Position numbers and translations under genes: made by a program. A DNA stretch of 33,292 nucleotides from Candidatus Thorarchaeota archaeon (lineage in GTDB: Archaea > Asgardarchaeota > Thorarchaeia > Thorarchaeales > Thorarchaeaceae), in assembly GCA_016840855.1 (NCBI GenBank), contig JAEORO010000157.1, forward strand, positions 1 through 33,292, written 5' to 3'. Positions 2,005 to 28,107 of this stretch are shown here, piece by piece (position 1 is the first letter of the stretch; each line of letters starts with the position of its first letter). The notes below the pieces were generated by a model. That model saw only the letters and a program-made list of their open reading frames with translations. It had not been told where the DNA came from and did no database searches.

Positions 2005-5000
2005 ATGAGGAAGAATGTGCTTGTATTGGCTTTTGTTGTATCACTTTTTGGAATCGGCTTGATAATCCCAAACACCAATTTTGATGCATCACAATCTTTT
2101 TTGAACAAGCCTCAATTATTCACAACATCTGGAATAGGTGATAATAATGAGGACTATGTTGATCAATTATCAAATTTGCACTTGCCATCAGACATTGGGA
2201 CACATGATGTATTTAACGACCTTCTAGCCCATGATACTAATTATGATTCATTGACAGAAGCTAACCAAGGATCAGCTGGGAACGATGTACTAGACACAGT
2301 TGACAGCGATGTTACAGACATTGACTCAAACCCAGATATTGGAACACAGGGTACATTTGTAAATGTCCAAGACTTAGGTGACGCTGATTATATGTCGGTA
2401 CAAGAAGCAGATGTGGGTTTTGCTGGAATCAATGAAAATCTCGATTGTAATGGCTACGATGGAACATACAGTGCATGGACTTTCGCTGGCGCTTCTCCCT
2501 ACTTGGATGCGGTAGACTACACGACGAATTATATCTATACATCTGGGGATAATAATAATGTAGGATATTTCACGTTTCCATCCACATCACTTACATCAGG
2601 ATCCGCTACAGTCACTCTCTATGTTTACTGCATGAGTGGCGATGGAAATGACCTGGCATCGGTCTATTACAATGTTGGTGCTGGAGACATTGATACAGGT
2701 GTTGATGTTTGTGATCAAACTAATTGGCAATATGACACTGTTAATCTAGGAACTCTTACAGCTGCTCAGATTAATGCTCTCAGTATTAGATTTACCTCTG
2801 TTAGGTCTCCACCAGGTAGTGAAATCAGAATCGATTACATCTACATCAATGTCTTTGCTGCTGCTGTTCCTGATTATGAGCTTGAATTTGAGTATCAATT
2901 CACTTCCGTTGATTTTAATGAAGTCAATGAAGAGGTCTGTATTAATATCCAATCAGCTACACAAGGCACTGAAGAACTAGAGGTCTACGAGTGGGATGGT
3001 GTTTCAAGCTGGGCTCTTCTTGGTACACTGAACTCTGATGGTTGGAATAATTTCACAGCATCATATATCACTTCAGTAACCTATTACATTGAGATTCGAG
3101 ATAATGAGCGTACAGATGAAACGACTCAATCAATATGGAATATTGATTCAATTATCCTACATCTATGGACAGTACCAACATTAGATTATGAGTTAGACTT
3201 GGAGGTTGGATGGACTGCAGCTGATTTTGATGAAGCAAATGAGGAGTTATGCATCTTCCCTGTGACTGGAGGTGGGTGGCCATCTGAGGACATTATTGTG
3301 GATGTCTGGAATGGTGCTTGGACAACTGTGTTTGCAGATCTCACTCCTGACCAGTGGAACAATGTGAGTATAAGCAGTTATCTAACAGGTTCAGCATTTG
3401 AGATACGTTTCTTAGGTGGCACTGAAACCGGCGATACCACACAGTCTACTTGGGAGATAGATGCGGTTCTAATACACACCTGGACTCCCAGTTATATTCC
3501 TGCCAACGACCAAGCCCCTACTCTGGACAATCCAAGTGACACTGATAATATGTACGCACAATACCAAGAGTATCAGGTCACCGTATACGTTTCAGATCAG
3601 AATGGATATGCAGATATTGACTACTTAGAGATTGGACTATGGGACAACACACGAGCAACCGAATATTGCAGATTCAGGTATGATGAGGACACGAATACTT
3701 TCACTGAGGAATATGATGCTGGTACATATGTGACTCTTAACACTGGAAGCTCTACTGCAACAGAGAGTGGAAATGATATTGATGCAACATTCTATTTCAC
3801 CATCGATTGGGATTTTCCGGATTCAACTGATTTAGATGCAAATTGCTCTGTAATAGATACACAGACTGAATCTGTGACAACATGGTATGAGGTCAATTGG
3901 GATGTTGAAACCAGACTCGATTATTCAGTATTTCCAAGTATCAATGATGGATCTGGGACTGCAGATAGAGGCGATCTTGACGGGTCATTCTCACTAACTG
4001 GTACAGTCATCTACTACAACTCCGTTGATGTCTATCCATCTTCCACTGCAGTGGATGTTTGGGTATCTTCTACCGAATATGGCTCCACTGTTGGTCCTTG
4101 GAGTGACCTTACACTCACATCAGGTGCCTTTGATGTCACTTGTTATGCTGATGACGCTGTTGGTCAGGATACATACACTATCAAGGTAGTTGAGGAGGGT
4201 GCTGGTTCCGGTGGAATCGACCTTTACTACACAACCAGTTATACTGACACATACATCGCTGACCGTGTACAGGTGCAGCTTTACTCTGTTGTTGATGATC
4301 GAATTGATGTTAGCACAAGTGTGAATGTAGATTTTACCCTCTATTATGATTATGACAACAGTCCAGTCTTAGATGGTACAGTAAGTCTAAACTTGATTTC
4401 TGCTACTGATTTGGGCTCTGGCGTTTGGAGAATAACAGATTCTGAAACAACGGCCACTTCAAACACGTACAACATTGTTAGTTATTCTGGAGGAACACAT
4501 GGAATTTCTGTTGTAGACCAGAATGGTCTTTCTCAACAGGTGATATGGGATGAGATAGTTGTTCAAACCACTGTTGCAGATGATATACGAGTCAATGTTG
4601 GAGATAATGTTGAGATTCGAGTCACACTGTGGTTAGCCTATGACAATACCTTTCTGGGAAGTGGCGACACCGTCACCCTTGCCGGACAAGCAATGACTTG
4701 GGATGACGGTAACTCATGGTTTGATCTAACTGTGTCACAGGCAACAGTTGGCATATGGAGCTACTTTGTGAATTCCAGTTCTGAAACGACTTATGGAATC
4801 TCAGCCTTGGACACAAACAGTCAAAGTGTCGGAGTAGTTTGGGACCAGATTGTTGTCCAGACGACGGTGGCTGATGACACTCGCGTCAATGTCGGAAACA
4901 ATGTTGAGATTCGAGCCACCTTGTGGTTGGCTTATGATGGCACCTTCTTGGGTAGCGGTGATACAGTTACTCTTGCTGGGCTGGCAATGACTTGGGATGC

Positions 5001-8000
5001 CGGCAATTCCTGGTTTGATCTAACCGTATCACAAGCTGCAGTTGGAGTCTGGATTTATTTTGTTAATTCGAGTACAGAAACCAATTTCGGAATAACTGCA
5101 ATTGACACAAACAGCCAAAGCGTTGGAGTAGTCTGGGACCAAATTATAGTCCAGACAACGGTGGCTGATGACACTAGAGTCAATGTTGGTTCAAATGTTG
5201 AGATTCGAGTCACTCTTTGGCTAGCTTATGATGGCACATCTCTTGGGAGTGGCGATACTGTCACCCTTGCCGGACAAGCAATGACTTGGGATGCTGGTAA
5301 CTCATGGTTTGACTTGATTGTTTCCCAGGCGTCAGTGGGTCAATGGACTTACTTTGTTAACTCTAGTTCCGAAACAGCATTTGGAATCACTGCTTTAGAT
5401 ACGAACAGTCAGAATGTAGATGTCATCTGGGACCAGATTGTTGTGCAGACTACTGTTGCTGATGACACACGAGTCAATGTCGGGGACAATGTTGAGATTC
5501 GAGTCACCCTATGGTTGGCTTATGACAATACTTTCCTCGGGAGTGGCGATACCGTCACACTTGCAGGACAAGTGACGACTTGGGATGCTGTAAACTCCTG
5601 GTTTGACCTCAGTGTGTCACAGGCGTCAGTTGGTCTTTGGAATTATTTCGTCAATTCAAGTACTCAGACCGGCTTCGGAATCACAGCTCTCGATACAAAC
5701 AGTCAGAATGTTGACGTCATTTGGGACCAAATCGTTGTTCAAACAACCGTGGCTGATGACACCCGTGTAAATGTTGGTTCAAATGTTGAGATTCGAGTTA
5801 CCTTGTGGCTAGCATACGACAGCACATTTCTTGGGAGTGGCGATACCGTCGCACTTGCAGGACAAGCGATGACTTGGGATGCTGTAAACTCCTGGTTTGA
5901 CCTCACAGTATCGCAAGCATCAGTAGGACTCTGGAATTACTTCGTCAATTCAAGTACTCAGACCGGCTTCGGAATCACAGCTCTCGATACAAACAGTCAG
6001 AATGTTGATGTCATTTGGGACCAAATCGTTGTTCAAACAACCGTGGCTGATGACACCCGTGTAAATGTTGGGGGTAATGTAGAAATCCGAGTCACCCTTT
6101 GGTTAGCTCATGACAGTACTTTTCTCGGGAGTGGTGACACTATCACACTTGCTGGACAAGTGATGACTTGGGACTCTGTGAATTCTTGGTTTGACCTCAT
6201 AGTATCTCAGGCATCAGTAGGTCGTTGGAATTACTTCGTCAATTCAAGTGCGGAAACCACTTTTGGTATTTCATTGTTGGATCCCAACAGTCAGAGTGTT
6301 GGAGTAATCTGGGATCGGATTGTTGTTCAGACGACGGTAGTTGATGATAGTCGTATCAATGTTGGAGCTAATGCTGAGATTCGAGTCACCTTGTGGTTAG
6401 CTTATGATAGTACCTTCTTGGGAAGTGGTGACACTGTGACACTTGCAGGACAAGCCATGACTTGGGATGTTGGTAACTCATGGTTCGACTTATCAGTTTC
6501 ACAACTATCTGTTGGTCTATGGAACTATTTCGTCAACTCTAGCACTGACTCAACTTATGGTATCACACTCATTGATACAAACAGTCAGAGTGTCGGAGTA
6601 GTTTGGGACCAAATTATAGTCCAGACGACGGTGGCCGATGATACTAGGGTCAATGTTGGTTCAAATATTGAGATTCGAGTTACACTCTGGCTAGCGTACG
6701 ACAGCACATTTCTTGGGAGTGGCGATACCGTCGCACTTGCAGGACAAGCGATGACTTGGGATGCTGGTAATACTTGGTTTGACCTCACAGTATCGCAAGC
6801 ATCGGTAGGACTCTGGAATTACTTCGTCAATTCAAGTAGCGAAACAAGCTTCGGAATCACAGCTCTCGATACCAGTAGCCAAAGCGCAGGGGTTGTCTGG
6901 GATCAGATTGCTGTGCAGACCACCGTAGCTGATGATGCACGTGTGAATATAGGAGCCAATGTTGAAATTAGAGTTACTCTTTGGTTAGCTTACGACAATA
7001 CCTTCTTGGGAAGTGGTGATACCGTCACACTAGCAGGACAAGTAATGACTTGGGATTCAACCAATTCTTGGTTTGATCTCACAGTATCTCAGGCGTCAGT
7101 GGGAATTTGGAATTATTTCGCCAATTCCAGCTCAGAAGCAACTTTTGGCATCACTTTGCTAGATACTAATAGTCAGAGTGTCGGAGTAGTCTGGGACCAG
7201 ATTGTTGTACAGACTACCGGGACTGACGATACGCGAGTGGATATAGGAGCTAATGCTGAGATTCGAGTCACCTTGTGGTTAGCTTATGATAATACCTTTC
7301 TGGGAAGTGGTGACACTGTGACACTTGCAGGACAAATAATGACCTGGGATGCTGGCAACTCTTGGTTTGATTTAACAGTGTCACAGATGTCCGTTGGTCT
7401 TTGGAGCTATTATGTCAATACGAGTTCCGATGCAACATACGGAATCACTTTACTTGACACAAATAGTCAAAGCATAGATGTCATCTGGGACCAGATAGTC
7501 GTACAAACAACCACTGCTGATGACACACGAGTCAATGTTGGAAACAATGTAGAGATCCGAGTCACACTCTGGCTCGCCTATGACGGTGCTTTTCTCGGAT
7601 TGGGCGATTCTGTAAATGTTGCAGGACAGGCTATGACTTGGGATGTTGGTAACTCCTGGTTTGACCTCACTGTTAGCCAAGCTTCGGTAGGTTTGTGGAG
7701 TTATTTTGTCAATTCAACCTCTGAAACCACCTTTGGAATTACTGCCTTCAATATTAACAGTCAAGGTGTTGATGTTATCTGGGATCAGATTACTGTGCAA
7801 TCGACTGTAGCAATTGATAATCGTGTAAATGTAGGAAGTAATGTGGAAGTGCGTGTCACGCTCCAGCTTGCTTATGACAACGTATTCTTGGGAAGTGGCG
7901 ACACAATCACCCTTGACGGTCAGACTATGATCTGGGACTCTGTGAACTCTTGGTTCGACCTCGATGTGACACAAGCATCTGTGGGACATTGGAATTACTT

Positions 8001-11000
8001 CGTCAATTCCAGCGTAGAAGCCACATTTGGCATTTCATTGCTGGATACAAACAGTCAAAGTGTTGGAGTGGTTTGGGATCAGATTGTTGTGCAGACAACG
8101 GTTGCTGATGACATTAGAGTCAATGTTGGAGCTAATGCTGAGATTCGAGTCACCCTGTGGTTAGCTTATGATAATACCTTTCTGGGAAGTGGCGATACTG
8201 TCACACTTGCTGGACAAGCAATGACCTGGGATGCAGGTAACTCATGGTTTGATCTCACTGTATCTCAAGCATCAGTAAATCTATGGAATTACTATGTAAA
8301 TTCCAGCTCTGATTCAAATTATGGAATCACTCTATTGGATACAAATAGTCAAAGTGTAGGAGTAATCTGGGATCAGATTGTTGTCCAGTCAACTATCGCA
8401 GACGATACGCGAGTGGATATAGGAGCTAATGCTGAGATTCGAGTCACCTTGTGGTTAGCTTATGATAATACCTTCTTGGGAAGTGGCGATACCGTGACAC
8501 TTGCTGGACAAGCAATGACCTGGGATGCAGGTAACTCATGGTTTGATCTCACGGTATCTCAGGCATCAATAGGACTTTGGAATTATTTCGTTAATTCCAG
8601 CTCAGAAGCCACTTTTGGAATTTCATTGCTAGATACTAATAGTCAGAGTGTCGGAGTAGTCTGGGACCAGATTGTTATACAGACTACAGTTGCTGATGAT
8701 GCAAGAGTCGGTATTGGAGATAATGTTGAGATTCGAGTCACCCTCTGCCTTGCCTACGACAGTACATTTCTTGGGAGTGGCGATACCGTCACACTTGCTG
8801 GACAAGTGATGACCTGGGATGCAGGTAACTCATGGTTTGACCTCTCTGTTTCACAGTTGTCAATTGGTCTTTGGACATACTATGTCAATTCGAGTGCTCA
8901 AACAGGTTTCGGAATCACAACTCTCGATACAAACAGTCAGAGTGTTAATGTCATTTGGGATCAAATTGTAATCACTATAGGTGTGGATGATTCAACACCT
9001 CTCAATGGAATCCAAGTCAATTTTACTTTAGCAATCATGTTTGATTATGATAATATTGCATGCACAACCTACCAAATTGTGATTCAGAGAAACAGCACTT
9101 GGTGGCATTCATTTACTGAAAGTAACAAGTCACAGTTTATAGACACAAACTCTGATACCTCCTATACATACACTGTGATGATTGTTACATCAGAGTCAAC
9201 ATACAATGTACTCTCCTTCTCAACAAACAGTCAACAGGTTGTATGGTCAGCTGCACCCAACTCTGCACCAGTAAACGATTCTGCACCTGATCTAGCAAAT
9301 CCTGATGATACTGACAACTTGTATGCTCGCTATACTTACTATGTCATCACAAGTAGTGTATCTGATATTGATGGATACAACGACATCGAGTACATAGAAT
9401 TGACACTTTATGACAACTCCAGAGCCAGTCCTGTCTGGACAGTTAGATACACGGTATCAGGTAATATCTTCTCAGTTGAGTCAGGAAGTACCTATATCAC
9501 GCTGAGCGCTTCATCCTTTGCAGTTGGAGCTGGTAACAATTTAGATGTCACTTGGTACATCAAAATTGGATGGGATCATTCAGACCTGACAGATGTGGAC
9601 ATGAAGCAATATGTCTATGATGGAATTATTGGAGATGAGGACTTCTATGAGTCAAACTGGGATGTTGAAACCCGTCTAGAAATTACTGGTCTGACAATCG
9701 ACGATGGTTCAGGAACCTCAAATCGCGGTCCTCTCGATGGAGCTTTTACTGTTTCAGGAACACTCATTTTCCTAAACTCTGTTGACAACTATCCCCTTGG
9801 CAACGAAACTGATGTCTGGGTGTCTAGTTCAGAATATGGTACATCTACTGGCCCTTGGAGTGACCTTACACTCACTTCTGGGCAGTTTAGTTTGACTGTC
9901 TATGCTGATGATGAAGTTGGACAAGACACACTAACAATCAAAGCTGTTGTGGAGGGTGGTGGAAGTAGTGGAACTGATCTTCTTAACAGTACAGCACAAT
10001 CAACCTACATAGCTGATCGGATTGCTGTTCAATCATACGCAGCTCTCGACCCTCGAATAAACATCAATGATGCAGCTACAATTGATGTGGAACTCCTTTA
10101 CGAGTACGATTCTAGTCCAGTCATGAACGGATCAGTTACAATCAACGGAATTGCAGCAACACATCAAGGAAGTGGAACTTGGAGATTTTCTGACACAAAG
10201 TCTTCTGTACAATCGTTCACCTATAATGTCGTTGCTTATTCTGGTGGAATTCACGGACTTAACCAAGTCAACCAGAATGCCATGACTCAGGATGTCATCT
10301 GGGATCAAATAGTTGTTCAAACAACTGTTGCTAATGACACAAGGGTCGATGTAGGAGCCAATGTTGAGATTCGAGTCACACTATGGCTTGCTTATGATAG
10401 CTCATTCCTAGGCTCAGGCGACACAGTGACTCTAGCTGGATCTGCAATGACTTGGGATTTTGGTGAAGGACGATTCGAATTGATAGTTAGCCAAGCATCA
10501 GTTGGGTCTTGGACATACTTTGTGAACTCAAGCTCTGAGTCCACTTATGGCATAACATCACTGAATCTCTCTGGTAGTAATGTAAGTGTCATCTGGGACA
10601 GAATACAAGTCCAGTCATACTCAATGAGTGATGGTCGTGTTAATGTTGGCGAAAGTGTTGACATTGATGTGAATCTCTACTATGACTATGATGACTCTCC
10701 TGTTACTGATGGTACAATTACAGTGAATGGAGCAATAGCAACTCATCAAGGCACAGGTCTCTGGAGGTTCTCTGACTCTGAAGTTGTTGTCGTTATGAAC
10801 ACTTACAATCTCGTTGTATGTTCTGGCAACATATACGGTCTCACTGCTGTTGATCAAAATAGTCAATCTCTGAATGTGATTTGGGACCAGTTAGTTATCG
10901 TAATTGGCGTTGATGATCCATCTTCACTGAATGGTCATCAAGCGAACTTCACTCTATCAGTGACATTCGACTATGATGACTCAGTATGTACTACATACCA

Positions 11001-14000
11001 GATTGTGGTAGACAGGAATGCAACATGGTGGCACTCATTCACCACTGTCAATTTATCATCATTTGTTGATACTAGCACTAATACAACCTACCTCTACAAT
11101 GTCAGTCTTGTGTCAAGTGAATCTACCTACGGTATAACCGCTTTTAGCACAAACACTCTACAGGTCACCTGGTCTCTCGCACCTAATGAGGTTCCAGTGA
11201 ATGATTTTGGCCCAGTTCTTACGAACGCTGATGATACTGACTATCTATACGCTCGATATCGATACTATGTGATTACGACATCTGTGAGTGATCTTAATGG
11301 ATATGCGGATATTAGCTATGTTGAGTTAACACTCTACTCTGATGACCAGCTTACGCAATACTGGACTGTGCGATATACAGTTGGAACGGGCATCTTCTCA
11401 GTGGAGTCTGGTGGCACGAACATAGCCATCGGTTCAGTGTCTAACGCTGTTGGTGTTGGAGATACGCTGACCATTATCTGGTACATCAAGATCAACTGGG
11501 ACCATCCTGATGTCGTAGATTCAGATGTCAATCAGTATGTCACTGATGGGACTGCAAGTAATTCAGACTTCTATGAGAGTAACTGGAATGTCGAAACTCG
11601 TCTTGATTACTCTGTGTTTCCCGCATTGTCTGATGACCGTGGAGATATTAATACTGGAAACCTATTTGGGACTGGAGCGGTAACATACTATGGCTCTAGT
11701 ATAAGTCCTCGCTCCAATGAAACTGATGTCTGGATTGTTCATGATCTTGCGGGGACTTGGAGTGGAAACCTCCTAGCTGGTAGTTTCAACATCTCAAGCA
11801 TAAGCTCAGCAGCAACAGTCCGAATGAACACCTATACATTCAAGATTGTTGCCGAGGGTGTTGGCTCAGGTGGCACAGACCTCTACTATACAACAAGCCT
11901 TACAGACACTTTCGTCACTGATAGGATCGAGATTTATGAGGCTGGTGTAGTTGACGGTAGAATCAACATCAACTCTGACTGTGAGGTCTGGTGGAGAGCA
12001 AGGTATGAGTATAGCAGCACCGAGATACAGAGTGGGTTGGCAATTGAGCTCGTTGGATCAAAGATTCTTGTCTGGGATGCAGGTAATCTCTACTGGAGAT
12101 GGATAGAATCTTCAATCATTCCTGATTTGGTAGAATTTGAAGTTGCATCTGCAAGCGAGTCGACATATGGGCTTACTGCATGGTTCAATACAACTCCTGT
12201 ACAGCAAGTCATATGGGACTCTCTTGTCATAACAATAACTGACCCTATTGACCAGAGGATAAATGTTGGCGCAAACGCATCAGGTATTGTTGTGAGTGCA
12301 GTCTACGCCTTTGATGGTACTCCCTATGATGGGAGCTTCATTTTGAACAATACTAACTACCAATACGCAACCCCACAGATTCAGGGTTATACCGTTCTAA
12401 GTTGCTCTGGCGATACATATGACATTACAGCGATTGGAATCAATGATGAAACATATTGTATATGGGATAGAGTCTTTGTTGTTTCATTAGATGCTGATGA
12501 ACTCTATCACGACCCCAACGATGATGTGATTATAACAGTTGAGCTTCAGTATGAGTTTGATAGTTCCTCAGTTGAGGACGGTATGTTTTTGATTGCTGGT
12601 CATCCACTCACTCATATAGGCTTAGGCATCTGGGAGGCGCAAGTCACAATAGCTGACTATCAAACGATAAACTTTGACAGCTTCACAATGTGTAATGCTA
12701 CAGTTCATGGCATTAGTGCATACAACATGAACAGCAATGGAGTTGCAGTATATTGGGACCGTCTCGAATTCTATTCGGTATCAGTGGATGATGGTAGAAT
12801 CAATGTCGGATCTTCATCCAATATTCAATGGAGTGTACGATTAGAGAATGCTGGTGTTTCAATCACATCTGGTCTCACAGCAGAGATGACTGGTGGTATA
12901 ACTCTCACTCCATCAGCTGGTTTCTATACTGCTACCGTCACCGAGGGTGTGATTGGAAGTGTATCCTATGGTATTTTGACAGCGACAATAGGGGAGATAG
13001 ATCAATTCACACAAAGTGCATCTGATGCTGTTGTCATCTGGGATAGAGTATCAGTCGCATCCATTCAAGCATATCCTCTCTCCTTGGACGCTGCTACAGC
13101 AACAGAAATTCGAGTCACACTGGTCTATGAGTTCGACTCTACTGAAGTCACAGACGGTGAGGTCTATCTAAATGACAACGGTGCATCTGTAGCAATGTCC
13201 TACAATTCTGCTGGTGGTTACTGGAGTGCATCCATCACGAAAACTACTGCTGGAAACTACACCTTCATTGTTGGAACAGTTCTGGGCAATACTCACGGCA
13301 TCTCTTCTCTTAGCACAGGTGGTTTAAGTGTCGAGGTCGAATGGGTAGCTGTCCCAGGATTCACAATTGACCCCATGACACTGATGCTAATCGGTGGTGT
13401 TGGCATTGGAGTCATTGGTGCTGCAATTGTAGCGTCGCGTCGTGGAAAACGCGGAGATGCTGCCGCGGTTAGCGATGTCGAATTGGCTGATTTCGGTGTT
13501 CCGGAACCTGCTGAACCTACGATAGCAGCTGAGCCAGAAATTGTCGAATCCGAAGCTGAAGCAGTCTCTGAAGAAATAAAGGCCGAAGAAACTGAACTAA
13601 TTGAGCCAGAGGTGTCTGAAGTGCCTGAAATAGAAGCTGAATCAGTCGAGGAAGTGGTTGAGCTTGAAGAGGTTGAACTTCCTCCTGTCGATGAAGAGAT
13701 TGGAGCAGATATAGCCATAATTGAACCTGCAGCTGAAGTAGTTGAAGAAACTCCAGAAGCGGTTGAAATTGAACTTCCTGAAGCCAAAGATTTGGAAATT
13801 GAAGCTGAACCTTCTATTCCTGAAGAGCCTCTTACAGAAGTAGCACCAGAAATTGAAGAGTCAATAGACGAAGTAGAAGTCAAACCTGAGTTTCCGGAAT
13901 ATGAAAAAATCCCGGAGGAGTTCATCGAACCAGCACCTGAGGTAGATTTGACAAAACTGACAAAGAAAGAGCTCCTTGATTTGATTCCTGCAGATATTAG

Positions 14001-14088
14001 GGAATCCACATCACCCAACGAACTCAAACGACTAACAAAACAAGAACTGATCAGTCTCGTAGAATCTTTCAGAGATGTCGAGGAATAG
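2005..14088 (+). CDS. Giant secreted surface protein with Ig-like repeat array, C-terminal membrane anchor and acidic tail
   Basis: This gene encodes 4,027 residues without interruption. Residues 1-24 look like a signal peptide (basic MRK, then a hydrophobic run). Residues about 140-500 hold beta-sandwich-like domains, two of them a tandem pair. A large module beginning PxND occurs three times (from residues 499, 2422 and 3064). Between and after these modules lie about 26 beta-rich, Ig-like domains of 95-98 residues, nearly all ending in a WD(Q/R/E/S)(I/L/V) boundary motif; fifteen of them (853-2322) are near-identical tandem copies. One membrane helix lies at about 3790-3810, followed by basic SRRGKRG and a cytoplasmic tail of about 215 residues very rich in Glu, Pro, Ala and Val. 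The last 45 residues contain two related helix motifs, LTKKELLDLI and LTKQELISLV. It is presumably an S-layer-like or adhesion protein spanning the envelope; no enzyme motif is visible. The ATG at 2005 is supported by GGAGT eight bases upstream. Confidence 0.93.
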   Translation: MRKNVLVLAFVVSLFGIGLIIPNTNFDASQSFLNKPQLFTTSGIGDNNEDYVDQLSNLHLPSDIGTHDVFNDLLAHDTNYDSLTEANQGSAGNDVLDTVDSDVTDIDSNPDIGTQGTFVNVQDLGDADYMSVQEADVGFAGINENLDCNGYDGTYSAWTFAGASPYLDAVDYTTNYIYTSGDNNNVGYFTFPSTSLTSGSATVTLYVYCMSGDGNDLASVYYNVGAGDIDTGVDVCDQTNWQYDTVNLGTLTAAQINALSIRFTSVRSPPGSEIRIDYIYINVFAAAVPDYELEFEYQFTSVDFNEVNEEVCINIQSATQGTEELEVYEWDGVSSWALLGTLNSDGWNNFTASYITSVTYYIEIRDNERTDETTQSIWNIDSIILHLWTVPTLDYELDLEVGWTAADFDEANEELCIFPVTGGGWPSEDIIVDVWNGAWTTVFADLTPDQWNNVSISSYLTGSAFEIRFLGGTETGDTTQSTWEIDAVLIHTWTPSYIPANDQAPTLDNPSDTDNMYAQYQEYQVTVYVSDQNGYADIDYLEIGLWDNTRATEYCRFRYDEDTNTFTEEYDAGTYVTLNTGSSTATESGNDIDATFYFTIDWDFPDSTDLDANCSVIDTQTESVTTWYEVNWDVETRLDYSVFPSINDGSGTADRGDLDGSFSLTGTVIYYNSVDVYPSSTAVDVWVSSTEYGSTVGPWSDLTLTSGAFDVTCYADDAVGQDTYTIKVVEEGAGSGGIDLYYTTSYTDTYIADRVQVQLYSVVDDRIDVSTSVNVDFTLYYDYDNSPVLDGTVSLNLISATDLGSGVWRITDSETTATSNTYNIVSYSGGTHGISVVDQNGLSQQVIWDEIVVQTTVADDIRVNVGDNVEIRVTLWLAYDNTFLGSGDTVTLAGQAMTWDDGNSWFDLTVSQATVGIWSYFVNSSSETTYGISALDTNSQSVGVVWDQIVVQTTVADDTRVNVGNNVEIRATLWLAYDGTFLGSGDTVTLAGLAMTWDAGNSWFDLTVSQAAVGVWIYFVNSSTETNFGITAIDTNSQSVGVVWDQIIVQTTVADDTRVNVGSNVEIRVTLWLAYDGTSLGSGDTVTLAGQAMTWDAGNSWFDLIVSQASVGQWTYFVNSSSETAFGITALDTNSQNVDVIWDQIVVQTTVADDTRVNVGDNVEIRVTLWLAYDNTFLGSGDTVTLAGQVTTWDAVNSWFDLSVSQASVGLWNYFVNSSTQTGFGITALDTNSQNVDVIWDQIVVQTTVADDTRVNVGSNVEIRVTLWLAYDSTFLGSGDTVALAGQAMTWDAVNSWFDLTVSQASVGLWNYFVNSSTQTGFGITALDTNSQNVDVIWDQIVVQTTVADDTRVNVGGNVEIRVTLWLAHDSTFLGSGDTITLAGQVMTWDSVNSWFDLIVSQASVGRWNYFVNSSAETTFGISLLDPNSQSVGVIWDRIVVQTTVVDDSRINVGANAEIRVTLWLAYDSTFLGSGDTVTLAGQAMTWDVGNSWFDLSVSQLSVGLWNYFVNSSTDSTYGITLIDTNSQSVGVVWDQIIVQTTVADDTRVNVGSNIEIRVTLWLAYDSTFLGSGDTVALAGQAMTWDAGNTWFDLTVSQASVGLWNYFVNSSSETSFGITALDTSSQSAGVVWDQIAVQTTVADDARVNIGANVEIRVTLWLAYDNTFLGSGDTVTLAGQVMTWDSTNSWFDLTVSQASVGIWNYFANSSSEATFGITLLDTNSQSVGVVWDQIVVQTTGTDDTRVDIGANAEIRVTLWLAYDNTFLGSGDTVTLAGQIMTWDAGNSWFDLTVSQMSVGLWSYYVNTSSDATYGITLLDTNSQSIDVIWDQIVVQTTTADDTRVNVGNNVEIRVTLWLAYDGAFLGLGDSVNVAGQAMTWDVGNSWFDLTVSQASVGLWSYFVNSTSETTFGITAFNINSQGVDVIWDQITVQSTVAIDNRVNVGSNVEVRVTLQLAYDNVFLGSGDTITLDGQTMIWDSVNSWFDLDVTQASVGHWNYFVNSSVEATFGISLLDTNSQSVGVVWDQIVVQTTVADDIRVNVGANAEIRVTLWLAYDNTFLGSGDTVTLAGQAMTWDAGNSWFDLTVSQASVNLWNYYVNSSSDSNYGITLLDTNSQSVGVIWDQIVVQSTIADDTRVDIGANAEIRVTLWLAYDNTFLGSGDTVTLAGQAMTWDAGNSWFDLTVSQASIGLWNYFVNSSSEATFGISLLDTNSQSVGVVWDQIVIQTTVADDARVGIGDNVEIRVTLCLAYDSTFLGSGDTVTLAGQVMTWDAGNSWFDLSVSQLSIGLWTYYVNSSAQTGFGITTLDTNSQSVNVIWDQIVITIGVDDSTPLNGIQVNFTLAIMFDYDNIACTTYQIVIQRNSTWWHSFTESNKSQFIDTNSDTSYTYTVMIVTSESTYNVLSFSTNSQQVVWSAAPNSAPVNDSAPDLANPDDTDNLYARYTYYVITSSVSDIDGYNDIEYIELTLYDNSRASPVWTVRYTVSGNIFSVESGSTYITLSASSFAVGAGNNLDVTWYIKIGWDHSDLTDVDMKQYVYDGIIGDEDFYESNWDVETRLEITGLTIDDGSGTSNRGPLDGAFTVSGTLIFLNSVDNYPLGNETDVWVSSSEYGTSTGPWSDLTLTSGQFSLTVYADDEVGQDTLTIKAVVEGGGSSGTDLLNSTAQSTYIADRIAVQSYAALDPRININDAATIDVELLYEYDSSPVMNGSVTINGIAATHQGSGTWRFSDTKSSVQSFTYNVVAYSGGIHGLNQVNQNAMTQDVIWDQIVVQTTVANDTRVDVGANVEIRVTLWLAYDSSFLGSGDTVTLAGSAMTWDFGEGRFELIVSQASVGSWTYFVNSSSESTYGITSLNLSGSNVSVIWDRIQVQSYSMSDGRVNVGESVDIDVNLYYDYDDSPVTDGTITVNGAIATHQGTGLWRFSDSEVVVVMNTYNLVVCSGNIYGLTAVDQNSQSLNVIWDQLVIVIGVDDPSSLNGHQANFTLSVTFDYDDSVCTTYQIVVDRNATWWHSFTTVNLSSFVDTSTNTTYLYNVSLVSSESTYGITAFSTNTLQVTWSLAPNEVPVNDFGPVLTNADDTDYLYARYRYYVITTSVSDLNGYADISYVELTLYSDDQLTQYWTVRYTVGTGIFSVESGGTNIAIGSVSNAVGVGDTLTIIWYIKINWDHPDVVDSDVNQYVTDGTASNSDFYESNWNVETRLDYSVFPALSDDRGDINTGNLFGTGAVTYYGSSISPRSNETDVWIVHDLAGTWSGNLLAGSFNISSISSAATVRMNTYTFKIVAEGVGSGGTDLYYTTSLTDTFVTDRIEIYEAGVVDGRININSDCEVWWRARYEYSSTEIQSGLAIELVGSKILVWDAGNLYWRWIESSIIPDLVEFEVASASESTYGLTAWFNTTPVQQVIWDSLVITITDPIDQRINVGANASGIVVSAVYAFDGTPYDGSFILNNTNYQYATPQIQGYTVLSCSGDTYDITAIGINDETYCIWDRVFVVSLDADELYHDPNDDVIITVELQYEFDSSSVEDGMFLIAGHPLTHIGLGIWEAQVTIADYQTINFDSFTMCNATVHGISAYNMNSNGVAVYWDRLEFYSVSVDDGRINVGSSSNIQWSVRLENAGVSITSGLTAEMTGGITLTPSAGFYTATVTEGVIGSVSYGILTATIGEIDQFTQSASDAVVIWDRVSVASIQAYPLSLDAATATEIRVTLVYEFDSTEVTDGEVYLNDNGASVAMSYNSAGGYWSASITKTTAGNYTFIVGTVLGNTHGISSLSTGGLSVEVEWVAVPGFTIDPMTLMLIGGVGIGVIGAAIVASRRGKRGDAAAVSDVELADFGVPEPAEPTIAAEPEIVESEAEAVSEEIKAEETELIEPEVSEVPEIEAESVEEVVELEEVELPPVDEEIGADIAIIEPAAEVVEETPEAVEIELPEAKDLEIEAEPSIPEEPLTEVAPEIEESIDEVEVKPEFPEYEKIPEEFIEPAPEVDLTKLTKKELLDLIPADIRESTSPNELKRLTKQELISLVESFRDVEE
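2872..3489 (+). repeat. Tandem pair of about 104-residue beta-sandwich domains in the surface protein
   Basis: Two consecutive domains start with DYELEFEYQFT (2872) and DYELDLEVGWT (3184), 312 bases apart. Both contain a DF(N/D)E(V/A)NEE(V/L)CI segment, a WNN segment and a TTQS(I/T)W(N/E)IDxxxxHxWT ending. The pattern of strands and the terminal Trp suggest a jelly-roll of the kind found in carbohydrate- or protein-binding modules, but the binding partner cannot be read from sequence. Confidence 0.75.
3499..4272 (+). repeat. Large surface-protein module, copy A
   Basis: This is the first of three related modules of about 250 residues. It opens with PANDQAPTLDNPSDTDNMYA, continues through a YVSDxNGYADIDYLE segment and a W(D/N)VETRL(D/E) segment, and ends in TYIADR. 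Copies B and C share these landmarks in the same order. A is five residues longer than B. It introduces the first super-repeat, which contains the 15-copy tandem array. Confidence 0.85.
4561..8970 (+). repeat. Fifteen tandem copies of a 294-bp (98-residue) unit
   Basis: Units begin at 4561 and recur every 294 bases up to 8677, the last ending at 8970; I checked the VQ(T/S)T or IQTT opening of the copies and found no insertion or deletion between them. A consensus unit opens VQTTVADDTRVNVG, contains EIRVTLWLAYD, FLGSGDTVTLAGQ, TWDxxNSWFDL and YFVNSS, and closes SQSVGVVWDQI. All fifteen carry an N-x-S/T glycosylation sequon at unit position 71. Copies 11 and 12 (from 7501 and 7795) are the most divergent; copy 15 has Cys in place of the Trp of TLWLAYD. 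The units code for protein and have no spacers, so this is not a CRISPR array. Confidence 0.97.
9268..10026 (+). repeat. Large surface-protein module, copy B
   Basis: This second copy begins PVNDSAPDLANPDDTDNLYA and shares with copy A the WVSSxEYG(T/S)(S/T), GPWSDLTLTSG and ADDxVGQDT segments, so B and A are closer to each other than either is to copy C. It introduces the second, shorter super-repeat, in which only one copy of the 98-residue unit is present. Confidence 0.85.
10315..10608 (+). repeat. Dispersed single copy of the 98-residue unit
   Basis: One 294-base unit lies 1.3 kb downstream of the tandem array, flanked by more divergent Ig-like domains. It keeps the VQTTVANDTR opening, EIRVTLWLAYD, the NSS sequon and a VIWDRI ending. 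It has diverged in the middle (FGEGRFEL in place of the usual NSWFDL region) and near its end (LNLSGSNVS), suggesting an older, unexpanded state of the array in the second super-repeat. Confidence 0.93.
11194..11931 (+). repeat. Large surface-protein module, copy C
   Basis: This third copy begins PVNDFGPVLTNADDTDYLYA. The first half tracks copy B closely (YYVIT, NGYADI, a YIKINWDHPD segment), whereas the second half is more divergent and lacks the WVSSxEYG stretch. It leads into the five most divergent Ig-like domains before the membrane helix. Confidence 0.8.
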
Positions 14089-26091: not shown

Positions 26092-28107
26092 TCAACCTAG
26101 CAATCCAGCTGTCCATAAAACAATCCGTAGTCCAATGAGTGCATCATCGCCTACTCCATATTCTCCTAGCAAAGCATAATTGTCGATGAAGAAGTTGGTT
26201 CCTGTTACTACGATTCTTCCTCCACTAGTATCTTCCCTACATCCCAAAACTGGTGCTGCTGGGTGGTAGCTGGCAAGCTGAGTCCCTCCTGGAGGAACAT
26301 GTATAGTAGCTCCATGATAATGGAATCCACTTAATCCAGAGGTGATTGGGTGTGAATCAAGATTTTCAATAAGTACTGGATCCTCTCCAGAGGGTACCTC
26401 AAGACCTGTGAGTTCAAATCCGGAAAAGCTCAGGAAATCATTGACTTGCGTGATATTTGTAAAACTAGCACCAAGGGTTGCTAAGAATATTCCTCCTCCA
26501 TTCCCATAATACTGCGAATAGGCAAGTTTCTCAGCAGCAGAGAATGGTAAAGAGTAAGCACTAGTTTCTGTCGGAATGGTTTCATTAGCATCATACACAC
26601 ATGGATCAAGTATGATGACTGAATCAAATTGTTGCAAGACTGAAAGTGTTGTTGCTGTGCTGTTTCGTATTTCAGTAACAGAAATATCGTTTGAAGTTAG
26701 CTCCTTGTAGAATTCCCTAAACTGACCATAGTAGGAATCAATTGACCACGAGGTGTGACTAATATCGAAAGCAACTCTTGCAATAGCTGATGACAACTCA
26801 AATGAAATCTCAAGACTTGTCGCTCCAAAATCTGTTGATGTGAACTGAATCGTATTGTTGAGCACCGATGGTCCTGATGAAGGCATGTGCGCAATAAGTG
26901 GGATAATTTTGCTCTGATTTACTTCGATAGTCGATGGGATATCGAAAATACTTGGGGAATCTCCAGTCACTGAAACTGTGAATGTTGTGCTACCTGATGT
27001 TAGTAATCTAACATTGAAATCGTAAGTGTCATCGTAAAATAGCTTCTCATAATCGATTGGTAGAGTAGCTGGAAAAGCTAAGCTCATAGCAGGTAGCTCG
27101 CCCTCTTGAGCAGCTGCAGCAAGTATCGTTTGAGAGTTTTGAACATTCAATTTCCCAGCTCCTACTACATAACTTGGATATTCAGTCATTGGATCTGCTC
27201 CTTTCATAAGAGCAGTCATTACTGACCCTGGACTATAGGTGATATTATTATCAATAGAATATCCAATGAGTTGCGCTGCTGCACCAGCAACACGAGGTGC
27301 TGCGAAGCTTGTTCCATAATATCTTGAAGTAGAGTCTGAAACCCATCCAAAAGCGCTGATATCTGGTTTCATGTATTTGTCGAATGTTGGGCCAGTCGAT
27401 GAGAATTCAGCGGGTGTATTGTCTTCATAGAGCGCTCCAACTGCAATACATTTTTCAAAAAGGCTAGGTGATGATATACTTGTACCAGCTAAACCGCTGT
27501 CTCCCTCATTACCTGCTGAGGAAACTACCACAACTCCTTTCGCGAAAGCCCATTCAACTGCTTGTTCTAGAGGGTCTCCCAAAACTGGACTTGAACCAAG
27601 ACTCATAGTGATAACGCTGCAATTCTGTTCAACTGCCCAGTATATTGCCGCTGTTAAACCAATAGGTGTTGCCACTCCATCAGTCCCTATCACTTTTCCA
27701 TTCACAATTTCTGCATTAGGTGTTTCAGCGACGAGGGTGGCAACAAGAGTGCCATGCGGAATATTCTCTGGTCGTGAGTCTGTGGTAGCTGTATCTATGA
27801 TATCATATCCATATTGAAGTTCAACGAAGCTTTTCTCCTCAACTACACGCCCTTGCAATGTGAAGCCAATGTCTATTCCCGAATCTAGGACTGCGACTCT
27901 GACTTTCGCGTTTGGACCATCACTAAATGGACCAATTCTGACAAGAAAGACCAATCCTGTTGATATAACGAGCATAAGGATAATGACAACTGCGATTATT
28001 CTTGTTCCACTAGATTTCTGCTTCCTAGGTGGTCCGTGCCAATAGTAATCGTCAATCATTTGTACCAGGCTCATATTGCTTTGCATGCGGCTTGTGAACC
28101 CTAACAT
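26092..28107 (-). CDS. Membrane-anchored subtilisin-like (S8) protease, site-1-protease-like architecture
   Basis: The 671-residue protein has a short basic cytoplasmic N-terminus, one membrane helix (about 36-57), and then a subtilase domain outside the cell. The catalytic triad is visible: D75 (AVLDSGID), H118 (HGTLVATL) and S267 (GTSFAAPRVAGA), with oxyanion N200 (SSAGNEG). The catalytic domain begins right after the helix, with no room for an I9-type propeptide. An Ig-like region (about 340-450) follows, and then a C-terminal domain of about 220 residues beginning VAFDISHTSW and containing GGGIFLATLG and GGRIVVTGTNFF. That region resembles, from memory, the glutamine-amidotransferase-like part of eukaryotic site-1 protease. 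It may process surface proteins. The ATG at 28107 lacks a clear ribosome site; an ATG at residue 8 or 12 is possible. Confidence 0.9.
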   Translation of the reverse strand: MLGFTSRMQSNMSLVQMIDDYYWHGPPRKQKSSGTRIIAVVIILMLVISTGLVFLVRIGPFSDGPNAKVRVAVLDSGIDIGFTLQGRVVEEKSFVELQYGYDIIDTATTDSRPENIPHGTLVATLVAETPNAEIVNGKVIGTDGVATPIGLTAAIYWAVEQNCSVITMSLGSSPVLGDPLEQAVEWAFAKGVVVVSSAGNEGDSGLAGTSISSPSLFEKCIAVGALYEDNTPAEFSSTGPTFDKYMKPDISAFGWVSDSTSRYYGTSFAAPRVAGAAAQLIGYSIDNNITYSPGSVMTALMKGADPMTEYPSYVVGAGKLNVQNSQTILAAAAQEGELPAMSLAFPATLPIDYEKLFYDDTYDFNVRLLTSGSTTFTVSVTGDSPSIFDIPSTIEVNQSKIIPLIAHMPSSGPSVLNNTIQFTSTDFGATSLEISFELSSAIARVAFDISHTSWSIDSYYGQFREFYKELTSNDISVTEIRNSTATTLSVLQQFDSVIILDPCVYDANETIPTETSAYSLPFSAAEKLAYSQYYGNGGGIFLATLGASFTNITQVNDFLSFSGFELTGLEVPSGEDPVLIENLDSHPITSGLSGFHYHGATIHVPPGGTQLASYHPAAPVLGCREDTSGGRIVVTGTNFFIDNYALLGEYGVGDDALIGLRIVLWTAGLLG

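Follow-up and report, generated by a model that had tools for sequence, protein, structure and literature searches.

The window, that is, the whole stretch of 33,292 nucleotides analyzed here, lies in contig C102 of a 3.36-Mb, 259-contig MAG of an uncultured Thorarchaeota (Asgard) archaeon. It carries a gene for a giant protein that begins with a hydrophobic segment and jelly-roll-like domains. Repeated cassettes come next, built from domains A and B, a row of Ig-like units and domain D; the chain ends with further Ig-like domains near the membrane, a single transmembrane segment, an acidic tail and an end module. The domain labels A, B, C, D and U were coined in this analysis. The parts of the gene are the following:

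2005..14088, plus strand: open frame of the giant protein (P0001), 4027 aa, a single open frame, with the same architecture in relatives
2005..2082, plus strand: predicted hydrophobic, signal-peptide-like N-terminal segment after MRKN (Kyte-Doolittle windows in residues 1-26 above 1.6)
2095..3489, plus strand: N-terminal region, presumed distal, with a spacer and jelly-roll-like domains (AlphaFold2, weak Foldseek matches)
3490..4269, plus strand: conserved cassette domains A1 and B1 before the array, recurring as A2-B2 and A3-B3 and in full-length relatives
4273..4560, plus strand: C-type 96-aa unit, related to the 98-aa unit
4561..8970, plus strand: the U-type array, fifteen Ig-like units of 98 aa (294 bp); unit position 71 holds the one N-x-S/T sequon of each
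8971..9309, plus strand: domain D, the end of the first cassette; in syntenic relatives, B and D bound a variable run of units
9310..11235, plus strand: second cassette, A2-B2-C-U-C-D, with a single U at 10315-10605
11236..13344, plus strand: third cassette (A3-B3) together with Ig-like domains close to the membrane, one of the 84-aa type
13360..13440, plus strand: transmembrane segment, then a basic RRGKR stretch; the sole strongly hydrophobic stretch besides the N-terminus
13441..13944, plus strand: acidic Glu/Pro-rich linker, placed in the cytoplasm from the sequence
13945..14085, plus strand: conserved cytoplasmic end module of about 40 residues (LTKKELLDLIP...LKRLTKQELISLVESF), conserved in syntenic relatives

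Elsewhere in the window, the minus strand encodes, at 26092-28107, a subtilase (PF00082); its N-terminus has a hydrophobic segment, and it may be a surface protease.

The fifteen units start at 4561 + 294n and end with base 8970, in one frame and with zero indels in an ungapped comparison. The MAFFT protein alignment of the units is a gap-free block of 15 rows and 98 columns with 38 invariant positions, and Tandem Repeats Finder reports a period of 294 and 15.0 copies, bearing out the exact register described in an earlier note on this DNA. A DNA search with a single unit recovers the 15 copies at E-values from 1.4e-151 to 6.8e-40, far beyond chance. The same search detects a diverged 16th copy at 10315-10605, which, along with three related 96-aa units (4273-4560, 10027-10314 and 10606-10896), had been overlooked in the original inventory of fifteen. 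The proposal that length is under structural constraint is supported. Purifying selection acting on compact beta-sandwich units would by itself give a fixed register, and no special cause has to be invoked; arrays of 98-aa units in other genomes, and the array of 84-aa units in another species, are equally invariant in unit length.

The fold was examined by prediction of three consecutive units, a check that the earlier note had suggested. The AlphaFold2 model of units 1-3 (64 aligned sequences; mean pLDDT 96.9, pTM 0.82) is all beta, and Foldseek matches it to 130 PDB chains at E below 0.001 and about 9-14% sequence identity; the matched Ig-like strings include Hoc, FdeC, titin I67-I69, PrgB, intimin and the S-layer proteins EA1, Sap and SbsB. 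The units are thus predicted to be Ig-like beta-sandwich domains in series, connected by very short linkers (one strand ends at residue 95 and the next begins at residue 97). The angles between units come from prediction alone, so that the stiffness implied by a rod-like shape is putative. For the N-terminal region, the model is of medium confidence (mean pLDDT 78.5, pTM 0.53) and consists of beta-rich jelly rolls. The Foldseek matches of this model, to reelin and to jelly-roll or carbohydrate-binding proteins, are weak, and no Pfam adhesive domain was recognized in this region.

Searches of Pfam and NCBIfam with the whole protein, its pieces, the flanks and the relatives of the unit returned nothing above the curated cut-off, and single-sequence and profile searches of the PDB found no relative. 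The earlier view that the unit belongs to no described family therefore holds, and no published description was found in the open-access literature searched, a scope that leaves out most subscription papers. The profile search against archaeal genomes, likewise suggested at the outset, was run with the 96- and 98-aa units over 228 genomes of the phylum and gave matches in 29, all in the window's own family; all named relatives are 'Candidatus Thorarchaeota' MAGs. Viral contigs yielded no relative of the unit, and hence there is no sign of a viral origin. These observations support the notion of a large protein built from a series of folded domains and of archaeal origin, presumably exposed on the cell surface.

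The sequon at position 71 is kept in every one of the fifteen units. The array total of 15 sequons is, however, below the 22 expected from composition, so that N-glycosylation is rejected as a special feature of the array. The STT3 oligosaccharyltransferase was not found in the window MAG and is present in all 15 congeners searched. Decoration of the conserved sequon by glycans is therefore no more than plausible.

The giant gene resides at a fixed chromosomal location. The order biotin-carrier (BCCP), thiolase, giant gene, DUF35, acyl-CoA dehydrogenase, conserved membrane protein, leuD, leuC is common to the window genome, MAG_9 (another genus) and SF_Bin37; G014 shows this order over the part that its contig covers, and other genomes provide one-sided support. 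Eight genomes encode a strong end module, and in each of them the DUF35 and acyl-CoA dehydrogenase genes adjoin it. The syntenic full-length proteins are open frames of 3,643 to 4,048 residues, and the run of units between B and D of the first cassette differs among the genomes: one 96-aa and fifteen 98-aa units in the window genome, fifteen 84-aa units in SF_Bin37, and a mixture of 96-aa with 98-aa units in both MAG_9 and G014, a comparison between species with one genome per species. The 84-aa unit is 51-54% identical to a single membrane-proximal domain of the window protein (residues 3409-3490), and the window and SF_Bin37 proteins both have a lone 98-aa unit in their second cassette. On the simplest reading, the domain that was amplified would differ from lineage to lineage and would in each case have been resident in the gene beforehand. 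Furthermore, a 1.5-kb segment (9271-10770) shows 84-88% DNA identity between the window genome and SF_Bin37, as opposed to about 55-75% over most of the downstream rest of the gene and 77% in the acyl-CoA dehydrogenase gene. Accordingly, this segment is probably a recombination tract that reflects exchange of a cassette between lineages. The claim of the earlier note that the structure is dynamic thus stands over a longer time scale, at which species differ, at one locus, in the type and number of their units, and does not extend to recent homogenization, as detailed below.

The genes around this slot say little about the protein. In G023 (L089), where no units were detected, the gap between thiolase and DUF35 is 198 bp and the slot is empty, and in other genomes unrelated genes lie between thiolase and DUF35. 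An operon link with the fatty-acid genes was therefore rejected, and the neighborhood is uninformative about function. A further array, on SMTZ1-45 contig C32 (L028, 3136-12797), comprises at least 26 consecutive 98-aa units in two overlapping frames with one apparent frameshift; the upstream neighbors of its gene, read from translations, are fdhD-like and radical-SAM-like. This array is not located at the acyl-CoA dehydrogenase locus, so that its gene appears to be a paralogue or a second gene.

The last 47 residues of the giant protein are 57-81% identical in five syntenic relatives, and the acidic linker in front of them varies in length and sequence. The end module, about 40 residues long, Lys/Leu-rich and probably helical, closes otherwise different giant Thorarchaeal membrane proteins and has no match in Pfam or PDB. 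Its profile also matches the C-termini of other large Thorarchaeota membrane proteins of about 2,300-2,500 aa, an 815-aa open fragment in the window genome and, more weakly, a HEAT-like protein (L073) with further copies. The sites are:

G010:C119:108949-109059, G002:C46:14799-14909, G018:C42:242494-242595 and G025:C82: end module
C52:2291-2404 (L068): end module in the window genome

This distribution suggests that the module could be a shared docking module. Other giant proteins of the class were also observed. The window genome encodes a second one (L063, G000:C149, 2274-8321, minus strand) of at least 2015 aa, with related units and a different conserved cytoplasmic tail (VTKLEHALTPEELLSLEE...) that is common to the 6620-aa protein of G007 and the 4682-aa protein of SMTZ1-45. 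A 6620-aa open frame of this class lies at 31-19890 of L045, in another Thorarchaeota genome.

Taken together, these results make it probable that the giant chain is a type-I membrane protein acting in the manner of a fibrillar adhesin, with the array as the middle part of its stalk. Under this model, the chain would be exported and held in the membrane by its single transmembrane helix at the C-terminus, with roughly three dozen domains of the beta-sandwich kind forming a fibre. An Ig domain is about 4 nm long. At that length, the fifteen units would span roughly 60 nm and the whole fibre perhaps 150 nm. The fibre would hold the N-terminal jelly-roll domains off the cell, where they may bind glycan or another surface. 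Each 98-aa unit would be maintained as a spacer by purifying selection, and over long times recombination among units and related genes would alter the number and kind of units between the fixed B and D. The placement of the ectodomain between single N- and C-terminal hydrophobic segments supports an anchored stalk, as do the model of an Ig-like string, the jelly-roll N-terminus, the low dN/dS between units, the conserved synteny with variable content between B and D, the exchanged cassette at 9271-10770, and the mosaic signal among units described below. The lack of a Pfam adhesive domain and the medium confidence of the N-terminal model count against it.

An extended form of this reading, which we offer tentatively and regard as rather doubtful, is that of a receptor-like class of fibres: giant type-I proteins in which amplification of one or another resident Ig-like domain at a fixed slot rebuilds the stalk in the course of evolution, and in which the helical end module, shared by several of them, docks an intracellular partner, possibly cytoskeletal or a scaffold. 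Such proteins would act in the way of eukaryotic adhesion receptors but be independent of them in sequence.

Alternatively, many copies of the protein might stand side by side as a structural, S-layer-like coat, with the long ectodomain serving as a substitute for a cell wall and no dedicated binding tip. The matches of the Ig-like strings to EA1, Sap and SbsB, the very acidic ectodomain and the occurrence of STT3 in the congeners, which makes surface glycoproteins likely, are all in line with a coat. The variation of the syntenic proteins in length and unit type is ill-suited to a lattice, however, and Asgard cells imaged so far are without an ordered S-layer (PMC9834061), so that we consider a coat unlikely.

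The divergence between the units bears on both their age and their mode of evolution. Across all pairs of the fifteen units, protein identity is 64-94% (mean 79%) and nucleotide identity 64-87% (mean 74%), with about 51% agreement at third codon positions. Copies 1-10 and 13-15, which the earlier note had called near-identical at the protein level, are 72-94% identical (mean 81%), and that description does not hold. Moreover, 47% of the residues that agree between two units use different codons; codon agreement is 0.49 compared to 0.37 expected for codons drawn randomly from the rest of the gene. The NG86 estimates give a median dN of 0.12, a median dS of 1.6 with 31 of 105 pairs saturated, and a dN/dS of about 0.08, a sign of strong purifying selection, the dS values being rough because they are close to saturation. 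Recent amplification and homogenization, one of the two explanations originally offered, is thus not supported. Given that the neighboring acyl-CoA dehydrogenase gene, a housekeeping gene, has a dS of 1.38 between the window genome and SMTZ1-45, a typical unit pair appears to be about as old as the split of these species, or older.

The SF_Bin37 84-aa and SMTZ1-45 98-aa arrays are almost indistinguishable in these respects (protein identity 79-80%, nucleotide identity 75%, third positions 51-55%, dS 1.3-1.6). Units that are highly similar as proteins and scrambled at synonymous sites thus characterize the class, subject to the bias of short-read assemblies, which break at arrays of truly identical units, towards diverged arrays.

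Exchange between units has nevertheless left traces. Identical patches of up to 74 bases in unit register, for example between units 10 and 14, 5 and 8, and 4 and 5, and a compatibility test among units (0.514 observed vs 0.570 permuted, p = 0.001; third positions alone, p = 0.013) show that the units exchanged segments now and then. Similarity does not decay with distance between units, which fails to support a simple picture of duplication from neighbor to neighbor. Within-genome identity of units (74.4 and 73.9%) exceeds that between the window genome and SMTZ1-45 (72.6%; permutation p = 0.0005), and for 14 of the 15 units the closest relative belongs to the same array. With an excess of just 1.5 points, we rejected species-specific homogenization as weak.

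Against this background, frequent recombination of near-identical DNA repeats, with stalk length varying among strains as a form of surface variation, as in Periscope proteins, appears quite improbable. The tandem folded domains, their mean protein identity and the difference in unit number between species fit such a mechanism; the diverged DNA, the near-saturated dS and the absence from the array of exact repeats of 80 bases or more contradict it, as does the similar divergence of the SMTZ1-45 and SF_Bin37 arrays, with the caveat that short-read MAGs display only arrays diverged enough to assemble. A false expansion or collapse in assembly can practically be dismissed: the MAG is fragmented and SMTZ1-45 contigs break within such arrays, but every unit differs, the lack of long exact repeats means that ordinary short reads resolve the order of units, largely answering the concern of the earlier note over copy number, and arrays of the 98-aa unit are present in relatives from other studies.

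The adhesin-like stalk, which we favor, can be compared to several known systems. Fibrillar adhesins of bacteria combine a stalk of repeated domains with a distal adhesive domain (PMC9210967, PMC8286594). The giant protein shares with them C-terminal anchoring, a long series of Ig-like stalk domains and extra N-terminal beta domains; serial stalk domains with a cell-surface anchor are predicted here, and the weakly matched jelly rolls are the candidates for the distal domain. It differs in that it is archaeal, in that its unit is absent from Pfam and no adhesive domain is recognized, and in that a transmembrane helix, continued by a long cytoplasmic tail and conserved end module, takes the place of a sortase motif as anchor. 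The strings of Ig-like domains in FdeC, intimin/InvD and phage Hoc correspond to the units in predicted fold, although none is a sequence relative above the cut-off in PDB or Pfam.

In Periscope proteins, high identity of the repeats in coding DNA is the defining feature (PMC8201768, PMC9704523). Tandem folded domains in a predicted surface stalk, high protein identity and unit numbers that vary between related genes are common to both, whereas in the giant gene the DNA of the units is near synonymous saturation, and the differences observed are those between species and concern the kind of unit too. The present arrays, three in number and of two unit types, are therefore a counter-example to the assumption that close similarity of tandem domains at the protein level implies homogenization of their DNA, recent or still under way: selection keeps protein identity at about 80%, with synonymous sites nearly randomized.

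Finally, cryo-ET of 'Candidatus Lokiarchaeum ossiferum' has revealed complex, unordered surface proteins and no ordered S-layer (PMC9834061), and among the proteins of more than 5,000 aa surveyed in another study, three are from Thorarchaeota, undescribed there (PMC11573180). A long, irregular surface protein would fit the former picture, although that organism belongs to another Asgard class, its surface proteins are without assigned genes, and the unit described here is found only in the window's Thorarchaeota family. Because the number and kind of domains vary at the same chromosomal place in relatives, the giant gene is a candidate for one of the uncharacterized Asgard surface fibres, and this syntenic gene family, with its predicted fold, defined variable slot and conserved cytoplasmic module, makes tests of localization and partners possible.
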